Source: Komagataeibacter diospyri
Lineage (GTDB): Bacteria; Pseudomonadota; Alphaproteobacteria; Acetobacterales; Acetobacteraceae
Length of the DNA: 64,000 bases
Direction: 5' to 3'
Assembly (NCBI RefSeq): GCF_006538165.1
Contig: NZ_BDLU01000001.1
Location: 1 to 64,000 of the forward strand
The notes below the pieces were generated by a model. The model was given only the letters and a program-made list of their open reading frames with translations, did not search any database and was not told the origin of the DNA. Shown piece by piece: positions 19,361 to 64,000 of the stretch. The position numbers and the translations under genes were made by a program. How positions within the stretch are numbered: position 1 is the stretch's first letter; every line of letters begins with the position of its first letter.

Positions 19361-19434
19361 TGGAGGTCTGGGCGGGAATCGAACCCACGTACGCGGATTT
19401 GCAGTCCGCTGCATCACCATTCTGCCACCAGACC
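19361..19434 (-). tRNA. tRNA-Cys (anticodon GCA)
   Basis: Read on the minus strand, the acceptor stem is GGTCTGG/CCAGACC, followed by the discriminator T (U73, universal in tRNA-Cys) and an encoded CCA. The anticodon arm is GCGGA-CTGCAAA-TCCGC, giving anticodon GCA. The T arm contains GGTTCGATTCC. The total is 74 nt including CCA. All arms fold without gaps, so it appears functional. Confidence 0.95.
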
Positions 19435-58512: not shown

Positions 58513-60855
58513 TTGTCCACGGACGAGATTGTCGATCCCACGATTGCCCCTTCCGACCAGTTCCGGCGCTTTCTCTATCATATCGGCATTCCGGTGGCCG
58601 GTGTGGTTACGGTCATTGCCGTCATTGCCGGGGTGGGGTGGCATTCCTACCAGACCGTCCGCACTGGCGCGCTGACCCTGACGCATGACCTGCTGGTCAG
58701 CCAGCAGGAGTATATTGCCAAGGAAGTCAGTTCCTTCCTCATGCCCGCCTCCGCCGGGGCGATCGTGGCGCGCGACATGCTCGAGCATGGTGCCCCAGCG
58801 GTCGAACAGAAGATATTCAACGGCTACAGCAGCACCATGATGCGGAATGTTCCGCAGATCCAGTCCTTCTACATTGCCGACAGCGACGGCAATTTCAGTA
58901 CGCTGGAACATGGTGAACAGCCCGGCCAGACCGCACTTACAACCCTGCATGATGTGGGTACGCCCAAGGCGATCTTCACGCATGAACTGCGTGACGGCGA
59001 TGGCAAGCTGCTGAAGCAGTGGCAGACCCCGGCAGGTACATATGACCCCCGCGGGCATGCATGGTTTACCGATGCGGTCAAGGCCGGGCAGGAAATCTGG
59101 ACCCCTCCCTACCTTGTGGAAGTCACCAGGCAGATCACCATTACGGCGGCGGTTCCGTACAAGGGCAGTAATGACAAGACGTATGTCTATGCCATCAACA
59201 TGTCCCTCAACCACCTCAACAATTTTCTCAATTCGCTGAAAATCGGTGAAAGTGGTAACGCGATCCTGCTTCAGCAGGGCGGGAATGTTGTCGCCGGTCA
59301 CGGTATGCAGGAAACCCAGACCAAGGCGCAGGGTGATCCGGCCAAGATGACGCTGGATCCCGTGAAATATCCGGTCATGACCAAGGCATTTGATGAATAC
59401 CGCGTCCATGGTTATGGCGCACGTACCATCAAGGTGAATGGTCGACGGTATGTGACCATTACCGCCAACCTGCCGGTCGGCAAGGATAGCTGGGTGCTGC
59501 TGCTGGTGGCGCCCGAGGATGATTTCTCACGTTTCGCCATGGCGGGCGGACAGCAGAACCTGATCTTCTTCGTTCTGGTTGTGATCATGGCGCTGGGCTT
59601 CGGGCTGCTGCTGTTCCTGCAGGCGCGCCGCAGTGACGGCCTGCGTAACCTGATCGCCAGGATGAGGCGGGTCGCCGGTCACGAAAGTGATGCCCTGCAG
59701 GAGGTCGCGCAATACGAGGAACTGTTCAATCCCGAAGACAATGCCCTGATTCTGACCAAGAAGCTGGCTGAACAGTCCGAGGCCAGAAGGGCCGCCATCT
59801 GGCGGATCCTGCATGATGGCCATACGCTCATGTGCATCGATTCCTATGATCGATTGCAGGACGTGCATTCCGGCGGCTTTGAAATGTCCACCACGGACCT
59901 GAAAAGCTTTTTCGACGCCGTATTCCATGGTGACCGCCTGGCCACGACCGCTGCCGATACGGATGAGCACACGACAGCATTCTACCGTGTGTACATGCGT
60001 GCTTTTGGCAGTAAATCCCTGGTCTGCTGCCCGATCGTGGGGAATGGTGGTCCGGTCGGGGTCATCACGCTGGAAGATGCGCCGCAGGCGGAAATGGTCT
60101 ATCATTTCGTGCAGATGGTTGCAGGTGTGGCGGCGGTCCGTTTTTCCGCCCAGCATTATACTGCGGTGGCCGCCGCGCGTGAGGAACTGGAAACGGAGCC
60201 CGCAGCCACAGAGGAACTTCACGATCCCAGCCAGGGATTCCTGCTGGCCCCGGGTGCGTTGTCCATAAACGGACAGCCGAACGCTACGGACCTGAGCCAG
60301 ATGGAAGGATTCTATCCCGCCGTCACCATCATGGTCATCAGCCTGTCTGACATGATCATGACGGCCCAGAATGATCCGGCCGCCAATATCAAGCTGATTG
60401 ATGACATGGCGGCTGCGTTGCAGGATATTGCCCATCAGTGCGGGCTGTATTCCATCCGCATGCTGGGGCATCGCGTCGTCTGTATAGCGGGGTGTTCGCG
60501 CACGCCGGACAAGGGGGCGGTGTTCCGCATGGCGAATGCTGCGCTCATGATGCGTGAAAACGTGCTGGCCATGCTGTCGAAAGCGGATCTGGACCCGGTC
60601 TTCCGCATCGGTATTGATGTCGGGCCGGTATTTGGCGGCATGCTGGGCAAGAACCCGCAGGCGTTCAACCTGTGGGGGGATGCCATGGGCATGGCCGAGA
60701 TGATGGCGCAGGGCGCGCCGGATGTCGGCACGATCCAGGTATCGGAAAATGTTTACCAACGCCTGCGTCAGTACTTCCTGTTTCGTGAACGTGGCCGGTT
60801 CTTCATTCCTGGCATGGGGCTGACACGTACTTATGTGCTGGCCGGACGGCGATGA
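58513..60855 (+). CDS. membrane sensor with dCache, GAF-like and degenerate class III nucleotide-cyclase domains
   Basis: A 780-residue sensor. TM1 is at about 24-46, a periplasmic dCache-like domain at about 50-345 (WFTDAVKAGQEIWTPPY, GESGNAILLQQGG), TM2 at about 349-370, a GAF-like domain at about 400-550, and a cyclase-fold domain at about 600-780 (FRIGIDVGPVFGGMLG, FNLWGDAMGMAEMM). The first metal Asp aligns with Ser610 (VTIMVISLSD) and the second with His653 (MLGHRVV). The transition-state Asn and Arg align with Gly726 and Met730. Catalysis is therefore unlikely; a nucleotide- or partner-binding role is inferred. The TTG start has AGGAAGAG upstream. Overlaps the permease gene by ATGA. 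Confidence 0.85.
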   Translation: MSTDEIVDPTIAPSDQFRRFLYHIGIPVAGVVTVIAVIAGVGWHSYQTVRTGALTLTHDLLVSQQEYIAKEVSSFLMPASAGAIVARDMLEHGAPAVEQKIFNGYSSTMMRNVPQIQSFYIADSDGNFSTLEHGEQPGQTALTTLHDVGTPKAIFTHELRDGDGKLLKQWQTPAGTYDPRGHAWFTDAVKAGQEIWTPPYLVEVTRQITITAAVPYKGSNDKTYVYAINMSLNHLNNFLNSLKIGESGNAILLQQGGNVVAGHGMQETQTKAQGDPAKMTLDPVKYPVMTKAFDEYRVHGYGARTIKVNGRRYVTITANLPVGKDSWVLLLVAPEDDFSRFAMAGGQQNLIFFVLVVIMALGFGLLLFLQARRSDGLRNLIARMRRVAGHESDALQEVAQYEELFNPEDNALILTKKLAEQSEARRAAIWRILHDGHTLMCIDSYDRLQDVHSGGFEMSTTDLKSFFDAVFHGDRLATTAADTDEHTTAFYRVYMRAFGSKSLVCCPIVGNGGPVGVITLEDAPQAEMVYHFVQMVAGVAAVRFSAQHYTAVAAAREELETEPAATEELHDPSQGFLLAPGALSINGQPNATDLSQMEGFYPAVTIMVISLSDMIMTAQNDPAANIKLIDDMAAALQDIAHQCGLYSIRMLGHRVVCIAGCSRTPDKGAVFRMANAALMMRENVLAMLSKADLDPVFRIGIDVGPVFGGMLGKNPQAFNLWGDAMGMAEMMAQGAPDVGTIQVSENVYQRLRQYFLFRERGRFFIPGMGLTRTYVLAGRR

Positions 60856-61742
60856 CCGATACGCCAACCCAGGCCCCTGAGCGCGCGGCGCCACAGACAG
60901 GCCCCATGGCTGTTCCCCAGCCGGATGACGCCGGTCGTCTGGTGCATCTGCTGCGGCGTTTTGCGCCGTGGCTTGCAGCCCTTGGGCGGCTGACGCGGCA
61001 TCAGGTGCGTTACACCCTGCTGGTGATTGGCGCCGGGTGGGGCGTGCTGCGCGAAAGCATGCGGTCCAATTCATGGCGCAGGCCGGTTATCTATGAATTC
61101 CGCGCCACCCTGCGGCAGGTTGTCAGTGGCGGTTTCCTTAGTATCGTGATCACCGCGACGCTGACGGGTCTTATGGTGGTGTCACAGGCTGCGTACTGGC
61201 TGGGTTATGCAGGCATGGCGCAGATGACGGGGTCGATCCTTGTTTCCGTGCTGGTGCGTGAAATTTCCCCCATCCTTGTTGGCATCATCATCATGGGGCG
61301 CAGCGGCATGCTGTCGCTGACCGAAATCGGCATGATGGTGCTGGGTGGAGAAGTGCGGGCGTTACAGGCGCGCGGTATTGACCCGTTTCTGGCGCTGATC
61401 ATGCCGCGTACGTTCGCCTTTACGCTGGGTGGCTTTACGCTGGGCATGATCTTTGCCGTTGTATCGCTGCTGATGGGGTTTGTGGTCGCCCATTCCACGG
61501 GGGCCATCACGTCCTCGGTCTGGACATTCTTCTTCAATGTCCTTGCTGCGATGACGACATGGGATTACCTGATTATTCCGCTGAAATTCGTGCTGGTCGG
61601 TTTCTTTGTCGGGGTGGGGTCATGTGTTTCGGGCCTGACCGTCAGCAGCAATGACACGATGGCCACCATCATGCCGCGTGGATTTGCGCGCGGGATCATG
61701 CTGGTGCTGGTGGTCAATATCCTCTTCATGCTGGATTTCTGA
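60852..61742 (+). CDS. MlaE-type ABC transporter permease
   Basis: Inner-membrane permease of an MCE lipid-transport system, 296 residues. After a Pro-rich cytosolic N-terminus there are about five hydrophobic segments. LTGLMVVSQAAYWLGYAG, the central SPILVGIIIMGRSGMLSLTEIGMMVLGGEVRALQARGIDP loop and the C-terminal GFFVGVGSCVSGLTVSSND match the MlaE family. The charged AELG-type loop normally docks on the ATPase. Translationally coupled to the sensor upstream; the degenerate ATPase gene follows after 1 nt. Confidence 0.88.
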   Translation: MTDTPTQAPERAAPQTGPMAVPQPDDAGRLVHLLRRFAPWLAALGRLTRHQVRYTLLVIGAGWGVLRESMRSNSWRRPVIYEFRATLRQVVSGGFLSIVITATLTGLMVVSQAAYWLGYAGMAQMTGSILVSVLVREISPILVGIIIMGRSGMLSLTEIGMMVLGGEVRALQARGIDPFLALIMPRTFAFTLGGFTLGMIFAVVSLLMGFVVAHSTGAITSSVWTFFFNVLAAMTTWDYLIIPLKFVLVGFFVGVGSCVSGLTVSSNDTMATIMPRGFARGIMLVLVVNILFMLDF

Positions 61743-61743
61743 C

Positions 61744-62439
61744 ATGACAGCCAACGCTCCCCTGCTGGAACTGCGTGACGTCGTGCCGTCGTTCGAGGAA
61801 ACCGGCCTCATGCCTGCGCCATACAACCTGCGCATCATGCCCGGTGAATGCGCGGTGATCGATTGTCGCGATTTTGAACGGGCCGCCATGTTTGCCGACC
61901 TGTGTTCAGGCATGGTTTCGCTGACGCAGGGCAATATCAGGTTCATGGGGCTGGACTGGAGCGCCCTGCACGACCGGCAGCTCTATGCGCTGCGTGGGCG
62001 TATTGGCCGCATTTCGCGCAACAGCAGCTGGCTCAACCTGTTTGGCACGCATCTCAATATCATGCTGCCACACCTGTACCATACCATGGACCCGTTTGAT
62101 AACGTGGTCCTGCATGCCACTGAACTGGGGCATCGGTTTGGTTTTCCCGGCCTGCCAACGTCCGCGCCCGACCGGCTGTCGGGTGCGGATCTGGCTCGGG
62201 CGGCGTGTGTACGTGCCTTCATGGGGCGGCCGGACCTGCTGGTGCTGGAGGATATATCCGACACGCTGCCAGAAGAGAATGTCCTGCCGTTTCTTGAAAT
62301 GATGACCACGGCGCGGGATCGTGGCTGTGGCGTGTTATGGTTCGTCCGTTCCGCGGCGGCCTGGCATGAATATCGCAAGGCGGTGAATATCCACATGCGC
62401 CTTCTTGACGAAGGTCTTTTTCCCATGCGGGTGGTGTAA
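61744..62439 (+). CDS. ABC ATPase-like subunit lacking Walker A (pseudo-ATPase)
   Basis: A 231-residue ABC nucleotide-binding-domain homologue by position and outline. LLELRDVVPSFEETGL begins the domain; LSGADLARAACVRAFMGRPDLLVLED (145-170) contains an ABC signature and a Walker B-like strand. The P-loop is gone: the region after GECAVID reads CRDFERAAMF, with no GKS/T. The Q-loop segment is ISRNSSWLNL, without Gln; the usual DE after Walker B is ED, and the H-loop reads LWFVRSAA, without His. It should not hydrolyse ATP in the normal way. The reading frame is intact and coupled on both sides, so it is a maintained gene, not a pseudogene. Confidence 0.8.
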   Translation: MTANAPLLELRDVVPSFEETGLMPAPYNLRIMPGECAVIDCRDFERAAMFADLCSGMVSLTQGNIRFMGLDWSALHDRQLYALRGRIGRISRNSSWLNLFGTHLNIMLPHLYHTMDPFDNVVLHATELGHRFGFPGLPTSAPDRLSGADLARAACVRAFMGRPDLLVLEDISDTLPEENVLPFLEMMTTARDRGCGVLWFVRSAAAWHEYRKAVNIHMRLLDEGLFPMRVV

Positions 62440-63392
62440 TGGTCCAGAAACAACAGTCAGACGGAATCCGGCAGCTTGTGCGCGTCCGTTACGCCGATGA
62501 ATGGGTGGGGATACTGGTCCTTGTGGCCCTTGTCATCCTGCTTGGTGCGGTGATCGAGGCCGGCGTGCTGCGTGACTGGCTGACGCCGGCGGGCAGGCTG
62601 CGGATCGTGCTGCCCGAAAACGGTGTCAGTGGCCTGTCGGTTGGTGACGATCTGGAGGTCATGGGCATCCATGCGGGCACCGTGCGGCGCGTGCGGATCA
62701 ATCCGTCGGGGGGCATGTACGCCATTGCCGAGATCGATCCCGATATTGAACCCTATATCCGTCGTGACAGCACGGCCATCATCCGCAAGCGCTTCGTGGT
62801 GGCCGGGGCCAGCTACATCGATGTTTCACGCGGGACGGGGGACAAGCTGGACTGGAGCTATGCTGTGCTGAGCGCCACCAACGCGCCCAACCCGGCTGAC
62901 ACCATTACCCAGACCTTCAGTGACATCCGTGACCGTGTCATCCCGGTTCTGGACAATGCCCAGCACATGATGGCAACGCTGGACGCCACCATTACGGACA
63001 TGCATGCGGGCAAGGGCTCCATCGGGCGTCTCATGACCAATGACGACCTGATCCGTCAGGCTGAACAGATGATTACCAGCCTTAACGCCACCATTGCACA
63101 GCTGACACCGATCGAAAAACAGCTTGCGGGTGTCATGGACAAGGCGAGCGCCAGCATGACCAACGTGCAGAAGGCCACGGGCGACCTGAGCAACGCGACA
63201 CCGGCCATTACCCATAACCTGCAGGATGCCAGCCAGCAGCTGCCGGTGCTTCTGGTTCAGGCGCAGACAACCGCCAGCAGCCTGCAGAAGCTGGTCGATC
63301 AGATGCGCGGTCTGTGGATACTGGGCGGTAATGGCAACAAGGCGGCGAAGCATAACCATGCCCGCCTTCCGGCGCAGAAGGTGCAGCCATGA
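62439..63392 (+). CDS. MCE-domain (MlaD-type) substrate-binding protein
   Basis: A 317-residue inner-membrane-anchored periplasmic protein. One TM segment near 22-43 is followed by one MCE domain (about 52-133): IVLPENGVSGLSVGDDLEVMGIHAGTVRRVRI and IIRKRFVVAGASYIDVSRG. The remaining 180 residues are long helices, as in other single-MCE proteins that form hexameric rings with a helical needle or plug. Such rings carry phospholipids or other lipids between the membranes. The ATG overlaps the previous stop (TAATG). Confidence 0.9.
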   Translation: MVQKQQSDGIRQLVRVRYADEWVGILVLVALVILLGAVIEAGVLRDWLTPAGRLRIVLPENGVSGLSVGDDLEVMGIHAGTVRRVRINPSGGMYAIAEIDPDIEPYIRRDSTAIIRKRFVVAGASYIDVSRGTGDKLDWSYAVLSATNAPNPADTITQTFSDIRDRVIPVLDNAQHMMATLDATITDMHAGKGSIGRLMTNDDLIRQAEQMITSLNATIAQLTPIEKQLAGVMDKASASMTNVQKATGDLSNATPAITHNLQDASQQLPVLLVQAQTTASSLQKLVDQMRGLWILGGNGNKAAKHNHARLPAQKVQP

Positions 63393-64000
63393 GAATGAAG
63401 AAGGAATATGCAGTCCTCGGCCTTGCCTTTGCGCTGGCAGGATGTGGTGGGGGCCAGGCAGTTACCCAGCCGGGTGACGCCACCCTGTTGCAGGATATGG
63501 ATACCGCGAAGGATGCCGTGGGCCTCGAACGTCTTTCGGTGGCGGAACAGCAGTACCGTGCCGCAGGCCAGCGGGCTATCGCGCGTGATGATGTCACGGC
63601 CATAGGTGATGCGGGCTATAACCTTGCCACTGTCCAGCTGGATGAGGACAAGGCGCAGGATGCGCTGTCCACGGTAACCGCGACGCGTTCGGCTCTGGCG
63701 ATGCGGGGGCAGACGGGTGATGATGCCGGGCTGGATCTGGTGCAGGCGGGTGCCCTGCGTCGACTGGGGCGCGCTACCGAAGCAGCAGATGCCGCTACAC
63801 GTGCTGCGGCGGCACAGGACCCGGATATTGTGGAAAAAGCCCAACTGATCCGTGGCTTGATTGCCGATGACAGCAACGATCAGACCACGCTGGCATCCGT
63901 CGATGCCTATTTCGCGAACCTGACCGGAAAGGTACCGACAGGCTGGACGGCGGATGCAAAGGAAATTGCAGCCCGTAACCTGCTGGCTACAGGCGGTAGC
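63389..64000 (+). CDS. lipoprotein with TPR-like helices (partial, runs off the window)
   Basis: The first 204 residues are visible; no stop is reached. MRMKKEYAVLGLAFALAGC is a lipoprotein signal with lipobox LAGC (Cys19). The mature part is made of Ala-rich amphipathic helices in pairs (GYNLATVQLDEDKAQDALS, LVQAGALRRLGRATEAADAA), resembling tetratricopeptide-type repeats. It overlaps the MCE gene by ATGA and is probably the outer-membrane or accessory lipoprotein of the same system. It has no similarity that I can see to MlaC or to the usual ABC auxiliary lipoprotein fold. Confidence 0.75.
   Translation, partial: MRMKKEYAVLGLAFALAGCGGGQAVTQPGDATLLQDMDTAKDAVGLERLSVAEQQYRAAGQRAIARDDVTAIGDAGYNLATVQLDEDKAQDALSTVTATRSALAMRGQTGDDAGLDLVQAGALRRLGRATEAADAATRAAAAQDPDIVEKAQLIRGLIADDSNDQTTLASVDAYFANLTGKVPTGWTADAKEIAARNLLATGGS

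Follow-up and report, generated by a model that had tools for sequence, protein, structure and literature searches.

MlaE-type transporters are seen as ATP-driven pumps of disputed direction. Such a system is kept in many acetic acid bacteria with a motor subunit that has none of the motifs for ATP use. We analyzed this system in Komagataeibacter diospyri, where it is encoded by a five-gene operon at the end of a 64,000-nucleotide stretch of contig NZ_BDLU01000001.1 (positions 1 to 64,000; hereafter, the window). The genes encode a sensor with a cyclase fold, an MlaE-family permease, an ATPase-like subunit, an MCE protein, and a lipoprotein. The operon provides a clear case of two pseudo-enzymes, the ATPase-like subunit and the sensor, conserved together within one bacterial operon.

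The closest described systems share some of these components. The MlaFEDB complex of the E. coli type has, like the operon, an MlaE-family permease, a single-domain MCE protein with one transmembrane (TM) segment, and a subunit with the fold of an ABC nucleotide-binding domain (NBD). Unlike MlaFEDB, the operon has no ATP-site motifs and includes its own sensor and TPR lipoprotein; its permease matches PF02405 at 118.5 bits (117.9 bits and 6.4e-34 in a separate search, cut-off 22.5) vs. 246.8 bits for the canonical permease of the same genome, and its match to TIGR00056 (5e-24) is below the cut-off of that model. Thus, the permease and the MCE protein with an N-terminal TM segment (PF02470, 5.9e-10, 39.7 bits, cut-off 25.1; TM by hydropathy) are those of an MlaE-type MCE system, and an active ABC ATPase is missing from the operon. 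Mycobacterial Mce operons likewise encode no working ATPase; in contrast to the operon, several of them are served by an unlinked active MceG, and we know of no pseudo-ATPase in the mycobacterial Mce systems. The Mpc system also combines an MlaE permease, an ATPase, an MCE protein, and a lipoprotein in one operon. According to the available part of PMC12436622, the ATPase of this chimeric Mla-Pqi system of Brucella is an MlaF homologue, and its permease bears a STAS domain. In the five-gene operon, however, the corresponding subunit has no P-loop and the permease has no STAS match (E up to 1), whereas the P-loop is intact in the Mpc-like copy on another contig (C37) of the K. diospyri genome.

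An earlier note on this DNA started from the premise that known MCE systems need an active MlaF-type ATPase. This premise is wrong, because PqiABC and LetAB are ATPase-free MCE conduits: PqiA and LetA are described without an ATPase domain in the accessible portion of PMC12436622. As in the operon, an MCE conduit is paired there with an inner-membrane protein that has no ATPase domain, and PqiC is an outer-membrane lipoprotein; unlike in the operon, this inner-membrane protein is PqiA or LetA rather than MlaE, there is no NBD-like subunit, and several MCE domains are present (PMC12436622 and PMC10897342, both as far as accessible). The permease of the operon belongs to the MlaE family and not to PqiA/LetA. 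Titles and abstract beginnings yielded no literature on the operon or on a pseudo-ATPase in an MCE system, which is weak evidence, as most subscription journals and preprints lay outside the coverage. The literature searched showed no MlaE system that combines a pseudo-cyclase with a conserved pseudo-NBD of full fold, and ATPase-free MCE conduits as such are already known.

Judged by its sequence, the ATPase-like subunit appears to be a pseudo-ATPase with no ATP-site motifs left, and our confidence in the missing catalytic residues, here as in the sensor, is very high. Its score against the Pfam ABC_tran model is below the cut-off (16.6 vs. 25 bits). The orthologues from 140 loci correspond to 127 distinct proteins, since some genomes were entered twice, under a named and an unnamed record; the count omits an unrelated ABC protein (L102, from genome G044) and two flank stretches (L106 and L107). 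Neither a G-x4-GK[ST] loop nor LSGG occurs anywhere in these 127 proteins, whereas the Walker A Lys, the Q-loop Gln, LSGG, the Walker B Asp/Glu, and the H-loop His are intact in 30/30 canonical MlaF proteins, the best-scoring ones from 42 genomes. At the position of the Walker A Lys, Ala is found in 103/127 proteins and Lys in none (126 residues and one gap). The Walker B Asp is replaced by Glu in 123/127, and the fifth signature position is a family-specific Asp in 124/127. The Q-loop position retains Gln in 24/127 and the H-loop position His in 2/127, with Arg in 86/127, and the D-loop Asp is mostly absent among the loci. Thus, the earlier claim that this subunit has lost its catalytic residues is borne out as a conserved loss, and a search of relatives for orthologues with an intact Walker A motif found none among the 127. 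Recent or local loss of the motifs is ruled out by the same count.

The pseudo-ATPase has near-invariant residues of its own, including A82-L83-R84-G85-x-I87-G88-R89, W96, H113, and F132-G133-x-P135-G136-L137-P138. Many of them cluster around the Q-loop and the helical subdomain, which is where ABC permeases dock. An AlphaFold2 model built from 46 sequences is a complete NBD (predicted local distance difference test score, pLDDT, 88.9; predicted template modeling score, pTM, 0.88). It matches LolD with Z 25.1 and a root-mean-square deviation of 2.5 over 223 residues, and MlaF chains with Z 22-23; nucleotide-bound LolD structures are its two top matches. As modeled, the ABC NBD fold is kept though the P-loop and LSGGQ are gone.

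The second pseudo-enzyme is the sensor. Two TM stretches (by hydropathy) flank a periplasmic dCache domain (dCache_1, 1.6e-13) and are followed by GAF (5.4e-8) and a class III cyclase fold (Guanylate_cyc PF00211, 3.7e-21, 76 bits, cut-off 21.9; Pfam search). It resembles class III adenylate cyclases in the fold of this domain, as judged from sequence, and in its C-terminal position, and its alignment with a solved adenylate cyclase, which we take to be from Mycobacterium, scores 83.8 bits. It differs from them in having no metal, adenine, or transition-state residues: the catalytic positions, presumably metal Asp 1, Lys, metal Asp 2, adenine-binding Asp, Asn, and Arg, are occupied by S610, R649, H653, N719, G726, and M730, respectively. 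We counted these positions in loci rather than distinct sequences, using the 132 of 136 sensors longer than 690 residues (L074, L087, L154, and L171 were dropped as short). Metal Asp 1 is present in 0/132 and metal Asp 2 in 2/132, so that no relative examined has both, and the window protein has neither. The adenine Asp is replaced by Asn in 129/132; Lys is kept in 38, Asn in 15, and Arg in 3. The earlier description of a sensor with a cyclase fold and no catalytic residues therefore holds. The sensor should be unable to produce cyclic nucleotides, and it is the sole PF00211 match in the host genome, the search covering this cyclase class.

Both losses are shared by a widespread system. At a threshold of 70 bits, which we set within the gap between 71.6 and 49.7 bits (a fragment in G289, 40.7 bits, is uncounted), the carriers are at least 90/299 Acetobacteraceae genomes from 35/102 genera. 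All presence counts are lower bounds, 8 to 11 candidates having been scored per genome in the family, class, and phylum searches. In 14 genera with several sampled genomes, every sampled genome carries the system (e.g., 7/7 in the genus of the window), and six genera show patchy presence (e.g., 1/6, 2/6, 4/6). Carriers include genomes of 1.7-2.1 Mb. In the class search (337 genomes), at least two genomes outside the family pass, G329 (248 bits) and G613 (253.5 bits), and the next ABC proteins score below 90 bits; the phylum search (249 genomes) gave at least three carriers, namely, the host genome, G040, and G329. Thus, a feature restricted to Komagataeibacter is ruled out. G329 and G613 belong to two other families and possess all five genes (L121 and L120). 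Because their sampled congeners have no match, horizontal transfer of the block into these families is suggested.

The five-gene order, conservation of which across the Acetobacteraceae had been proposed as a check, is kept on one strand in 124/140 loci. Contig ends truncate seven of the remaining 16 loci, tblastn gave no lipoprotein match in seven others, and the last two (L067 and L070) carry the other four genes with no sensor match beside them. The sensor is therefore not obligatory. Flanking genes gave no functional hint: among the 78 named loci whose upstream stretch is 1.2 kb or longer, dnaQ lies immediately upstream in 26, and in six further loci viewed by eye the neighbors differ. Since the neighbors vary between genera, the five-gene block is the unit that is kept. 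The ratio of non-synonymous to synonymous substitution rates (dN/dS; Nei-Gojobori, 66 pairs of 12 Komagataeibacter-like loci, canonical MlaF being outside the comparison) has a median of 0.070 for the MCE protein; the pseudo-ATPase (0.116) is close to the permease (0.119), and the lipoprotein and the sensor follow at 0.154 and 0.159, respectively. The pseudo-enzyme states of both proteins are old and fixed.

We give about even chances to the explanation that the operon encodes an envelope-spanning MlaE/MCE lipid conduit whose own motor subunit hydrolyzes no ATP. A pair of pseudo-ATPase subunits would bind the coupling helices of the dimeric permease, acting as a structural clamp that keeps the permease nucleotide-free, i.e., in the state that is open towards the MCE ring in MlaFEDB. 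The coupling helix of MlaE contacts MlaF, its location in MlaE being given in the accessible part of PMC7790496. The ATP-free MlaFEDB permease opens towards the MlaD channel, and lipid transfer from MlaD to MlaC is reported without ATP hydrolysis, which is said to prevent transfer (accessible part of PMC10212509). Because the ATP-free permease is open and this NBD would never bind ATP, the permease would stay open and lipid would run down its gradient. Phospholipid would pass between the inner membrane and the MCE tunnel along this gradient, probably outwards, and at the outer membrane the TPR lipoprotein would anchor the MCE needle or cap it. The dCache-GAF pseudo-cyclase may read periplasmic and cytoplasmic signals and tune the conduit by contact, as suggested by the gene order and by the lost chemistry, with no cyclic nucleotides expected. 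A stronger version, which we hold only tentatively and with more doubt than belief, is a pseudo-ABC transporter with all NBDs dead by design: a passive outward (anterograde) phospholipid conduit with the pseudo-cyclase switch as a pure protein-protein module. Should the system move lipid, it would be a natural experiment showing that MlaE and MCE proteins can conduct with no motor, and one in which the direction of this unpowered flow can be measured.

Several observations weigh against the unpowered conduit. We infer the docking of the pseudo-ATPase on the permease, the lipid cargo, the direction, and the gating. The mean majority frequency along the pseudo-ATPase does not single out the docking side: it is 0.66 for the Q-loop, 0.67 for the former signature, 0.58 for the helical part, and 0.54 for the former Walker A, vs. 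0.55 overall. In the permease, the putative coupling segment is conserved at 0.64, little above the mean of 0.60, and residues 121-156 are higher (0.72). Sequence profiles of MacB, DppD, LolD, and FtsE (74-65 bits) are nearer to the pseudo-ATPase than that of MlaF (61 bits); therefore, origin from MlaF is not established. As for direction, a review favors retrograde Mla transport and disputes an anterograde role (PMC10212509, accessible part). Finally, a canonical MlaF gene was found in each of the 42 tested carriers, out of 92 known, so that none of them excludes powering in trans.

In the host genome, contig C49 carries canonical MlaE and MlaF, and contig C37 an Mpc-like operon whose ATPase is intact. 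The C49 pair (L012, 3989-5562) adjoins a radA-like gene, as seen by eye; no MCE match lies on this contig, and short MlaD-like genes are found on contigs C56 and C29. The C37 operon (L013, 4365-7979) encodes an MlaE protein with an N-terminal extension (possibly STAS), an ATPase with an intact P-loop, an MCE protein, and a lipoprotein. Canonical MlaE occurs in 52/52 genomes tested (45 carriers and 7 non-carriers), being fragmented in G126, and MlaF of G009 was matched only in part. No carrier without canonical MlaFE was found among the tested genomes except G126, where both are damaged, MlaF by five in-frame stops. In G126 (L074, and contig C1 near 1491020-1492364), the five-gene operon is damaged as well: the sensor has 351 residues, the permease 90, the pseudo-ATPase 166, and the MCE protein 211, and the lipoprotein is matched over residues 1-123 only. 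The congener G046 has both systems, and G126 is a possible natural loss of MlaE systems.

These data bear on an alternative that we consider unlikely, although likelier than the others below: a hybrid pump, named in the earlier note beside a passive or sensor-gated channel, in which canonical MlaF of the cell powers the permease in trans, as MceG does for several mycobacterial systems, and the pseudo-ATPase acts as an adaptor or as a regulator similar to MlaB, or forms half of a mixed NBD dimer. Universal MlaE and MlaF in the tested carriers and the joint damage in G126 agree with it. However, the own full-fold NBD of the operon would fill the ATPase seat, and no normal ATP site would form in a mixed dimer, because the pseudo-ATPase lacks Walker A, LSGG, and mostly the D-loop Asp. 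The presence of MlaE is uninformative, since the seven tested non-carriers also keep it.

Another alternative, in our estimate quite unlikely, is a signaling scaffold, in which the permease, MCE protein, and lipoprotein sense the lipid state and inform the pseudo-cyclase sensor, with no net transport. The catalytic residues are absent from both nucleotide-using modules, and a dCache-GAF sensor is encoded by the first gene, both of which speak for this reading. Yet it is the MCE protein that has the lowest dN/dS of the five, and the permease, pseudo-ATPase, MCE protein, and lipoprotein persist in the two loci with no sensor found alongside.

That the ATPase-like subunit still binds or hydrolyzes nucleotide via a changed site seems very improbable. 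The intact predicted fold, the nucleotide-bound state of its top two structural matches, and the acidic residues conserved where Walker B and the signature used to be are in line with such a site, but 127 distinct proteins have no Walker A lysine and no glycine-rich loop, and their H-loop position has mostly exchanged His for Arg. Decay of an operon without function has a negligible chance: it could account for the damaged copies in G126, the short sensors in L087, L154, and L171, and the lipoprotein stop codons in L142 and L171 (at our coordinates), but the conservation in 35/102 genera, including genomes of 1.7-2.1 Mb, and median dN/dS values of 0.07-0.16 for the five genes largely refute it.

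Coordinates of the operon and its parts in the window
Feature	Position	Strand	Details
Pseudo-cyclase sensor	58513..60855	+	780 residues, TTG start; TM ~19-46, periplasmic dCache, TM ~341-373, GAF 413-542, class III cyclase fold 601-777
Class III cyclase domain lacking the catalytic residues	60313..60843	+	Alignment to solved adenylate cyclases, family counts
MlaE-family permease	60852..61742	+	296 residues; PF02405
Permease segment 157-186, putative coupling segment between TM2 and TM3 (our placement)	61320..61409	+	Alignment
Pseudo-ATPase, predicted ABC NBD fold without ATP-site motifs	61744..62439	+	231 residues
Former Walker A GECAVIDCRDFERAAM, residues 34-49	61843..61890	+	
Former signature motif LSGADLAR, residues 145-152	62176..62199	+	
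Former Walker B DLLVLED, residues 164-170	62233..62253	+	
MCE protein	62439..63392	+	317 residues; one N-terminal TM (16-48), MCE domain 63-132, long C-terminal region
TPR lipoprotein	63389..64000 in window; full gene 63389-64279 of contig	+	296 residues; lipobox LAGC read by eye

The open reading frames match the earlier description of five coupled plus-strand genes at 58513-64000, and so do their junctions: ATGA overlaps between the sensor and MlaE genes and between the MCE and lipoprotein genes, a 1-nt gap between the MlaE and ATPase-like genes, and a TAATG overlap between the ATPase-like and MCE genes. The fifth gene does encode a lipoprotein, as had been said, with the correction that the gene runs past the window edge, its end lying at contig position 64279, and that its product is of the TPR-type alpha-solenoid class. 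The orthologue from L125 models as a TPR solenoid (pLDDT 89.4), with generic TPR proteins as the best structural matches (E about 5e-5 and weaker).

The host genome comprises 3.76 Mb in 105 contigs. The nearest pseudo-ATPases in named records, from which those of the same genome may be left out, are 95% identical and come from K. europaeus, K. swingsii, and Komagataeibacter sp. FXV3. Within the operon, Rfam and tRNA scans had no hits; elsewhere in the window, they located a fluoride riboswitch (RF01734, 5985-6066, 43.3 bits) and a tRNA-Cys gene on the minus strand (19361-19434).

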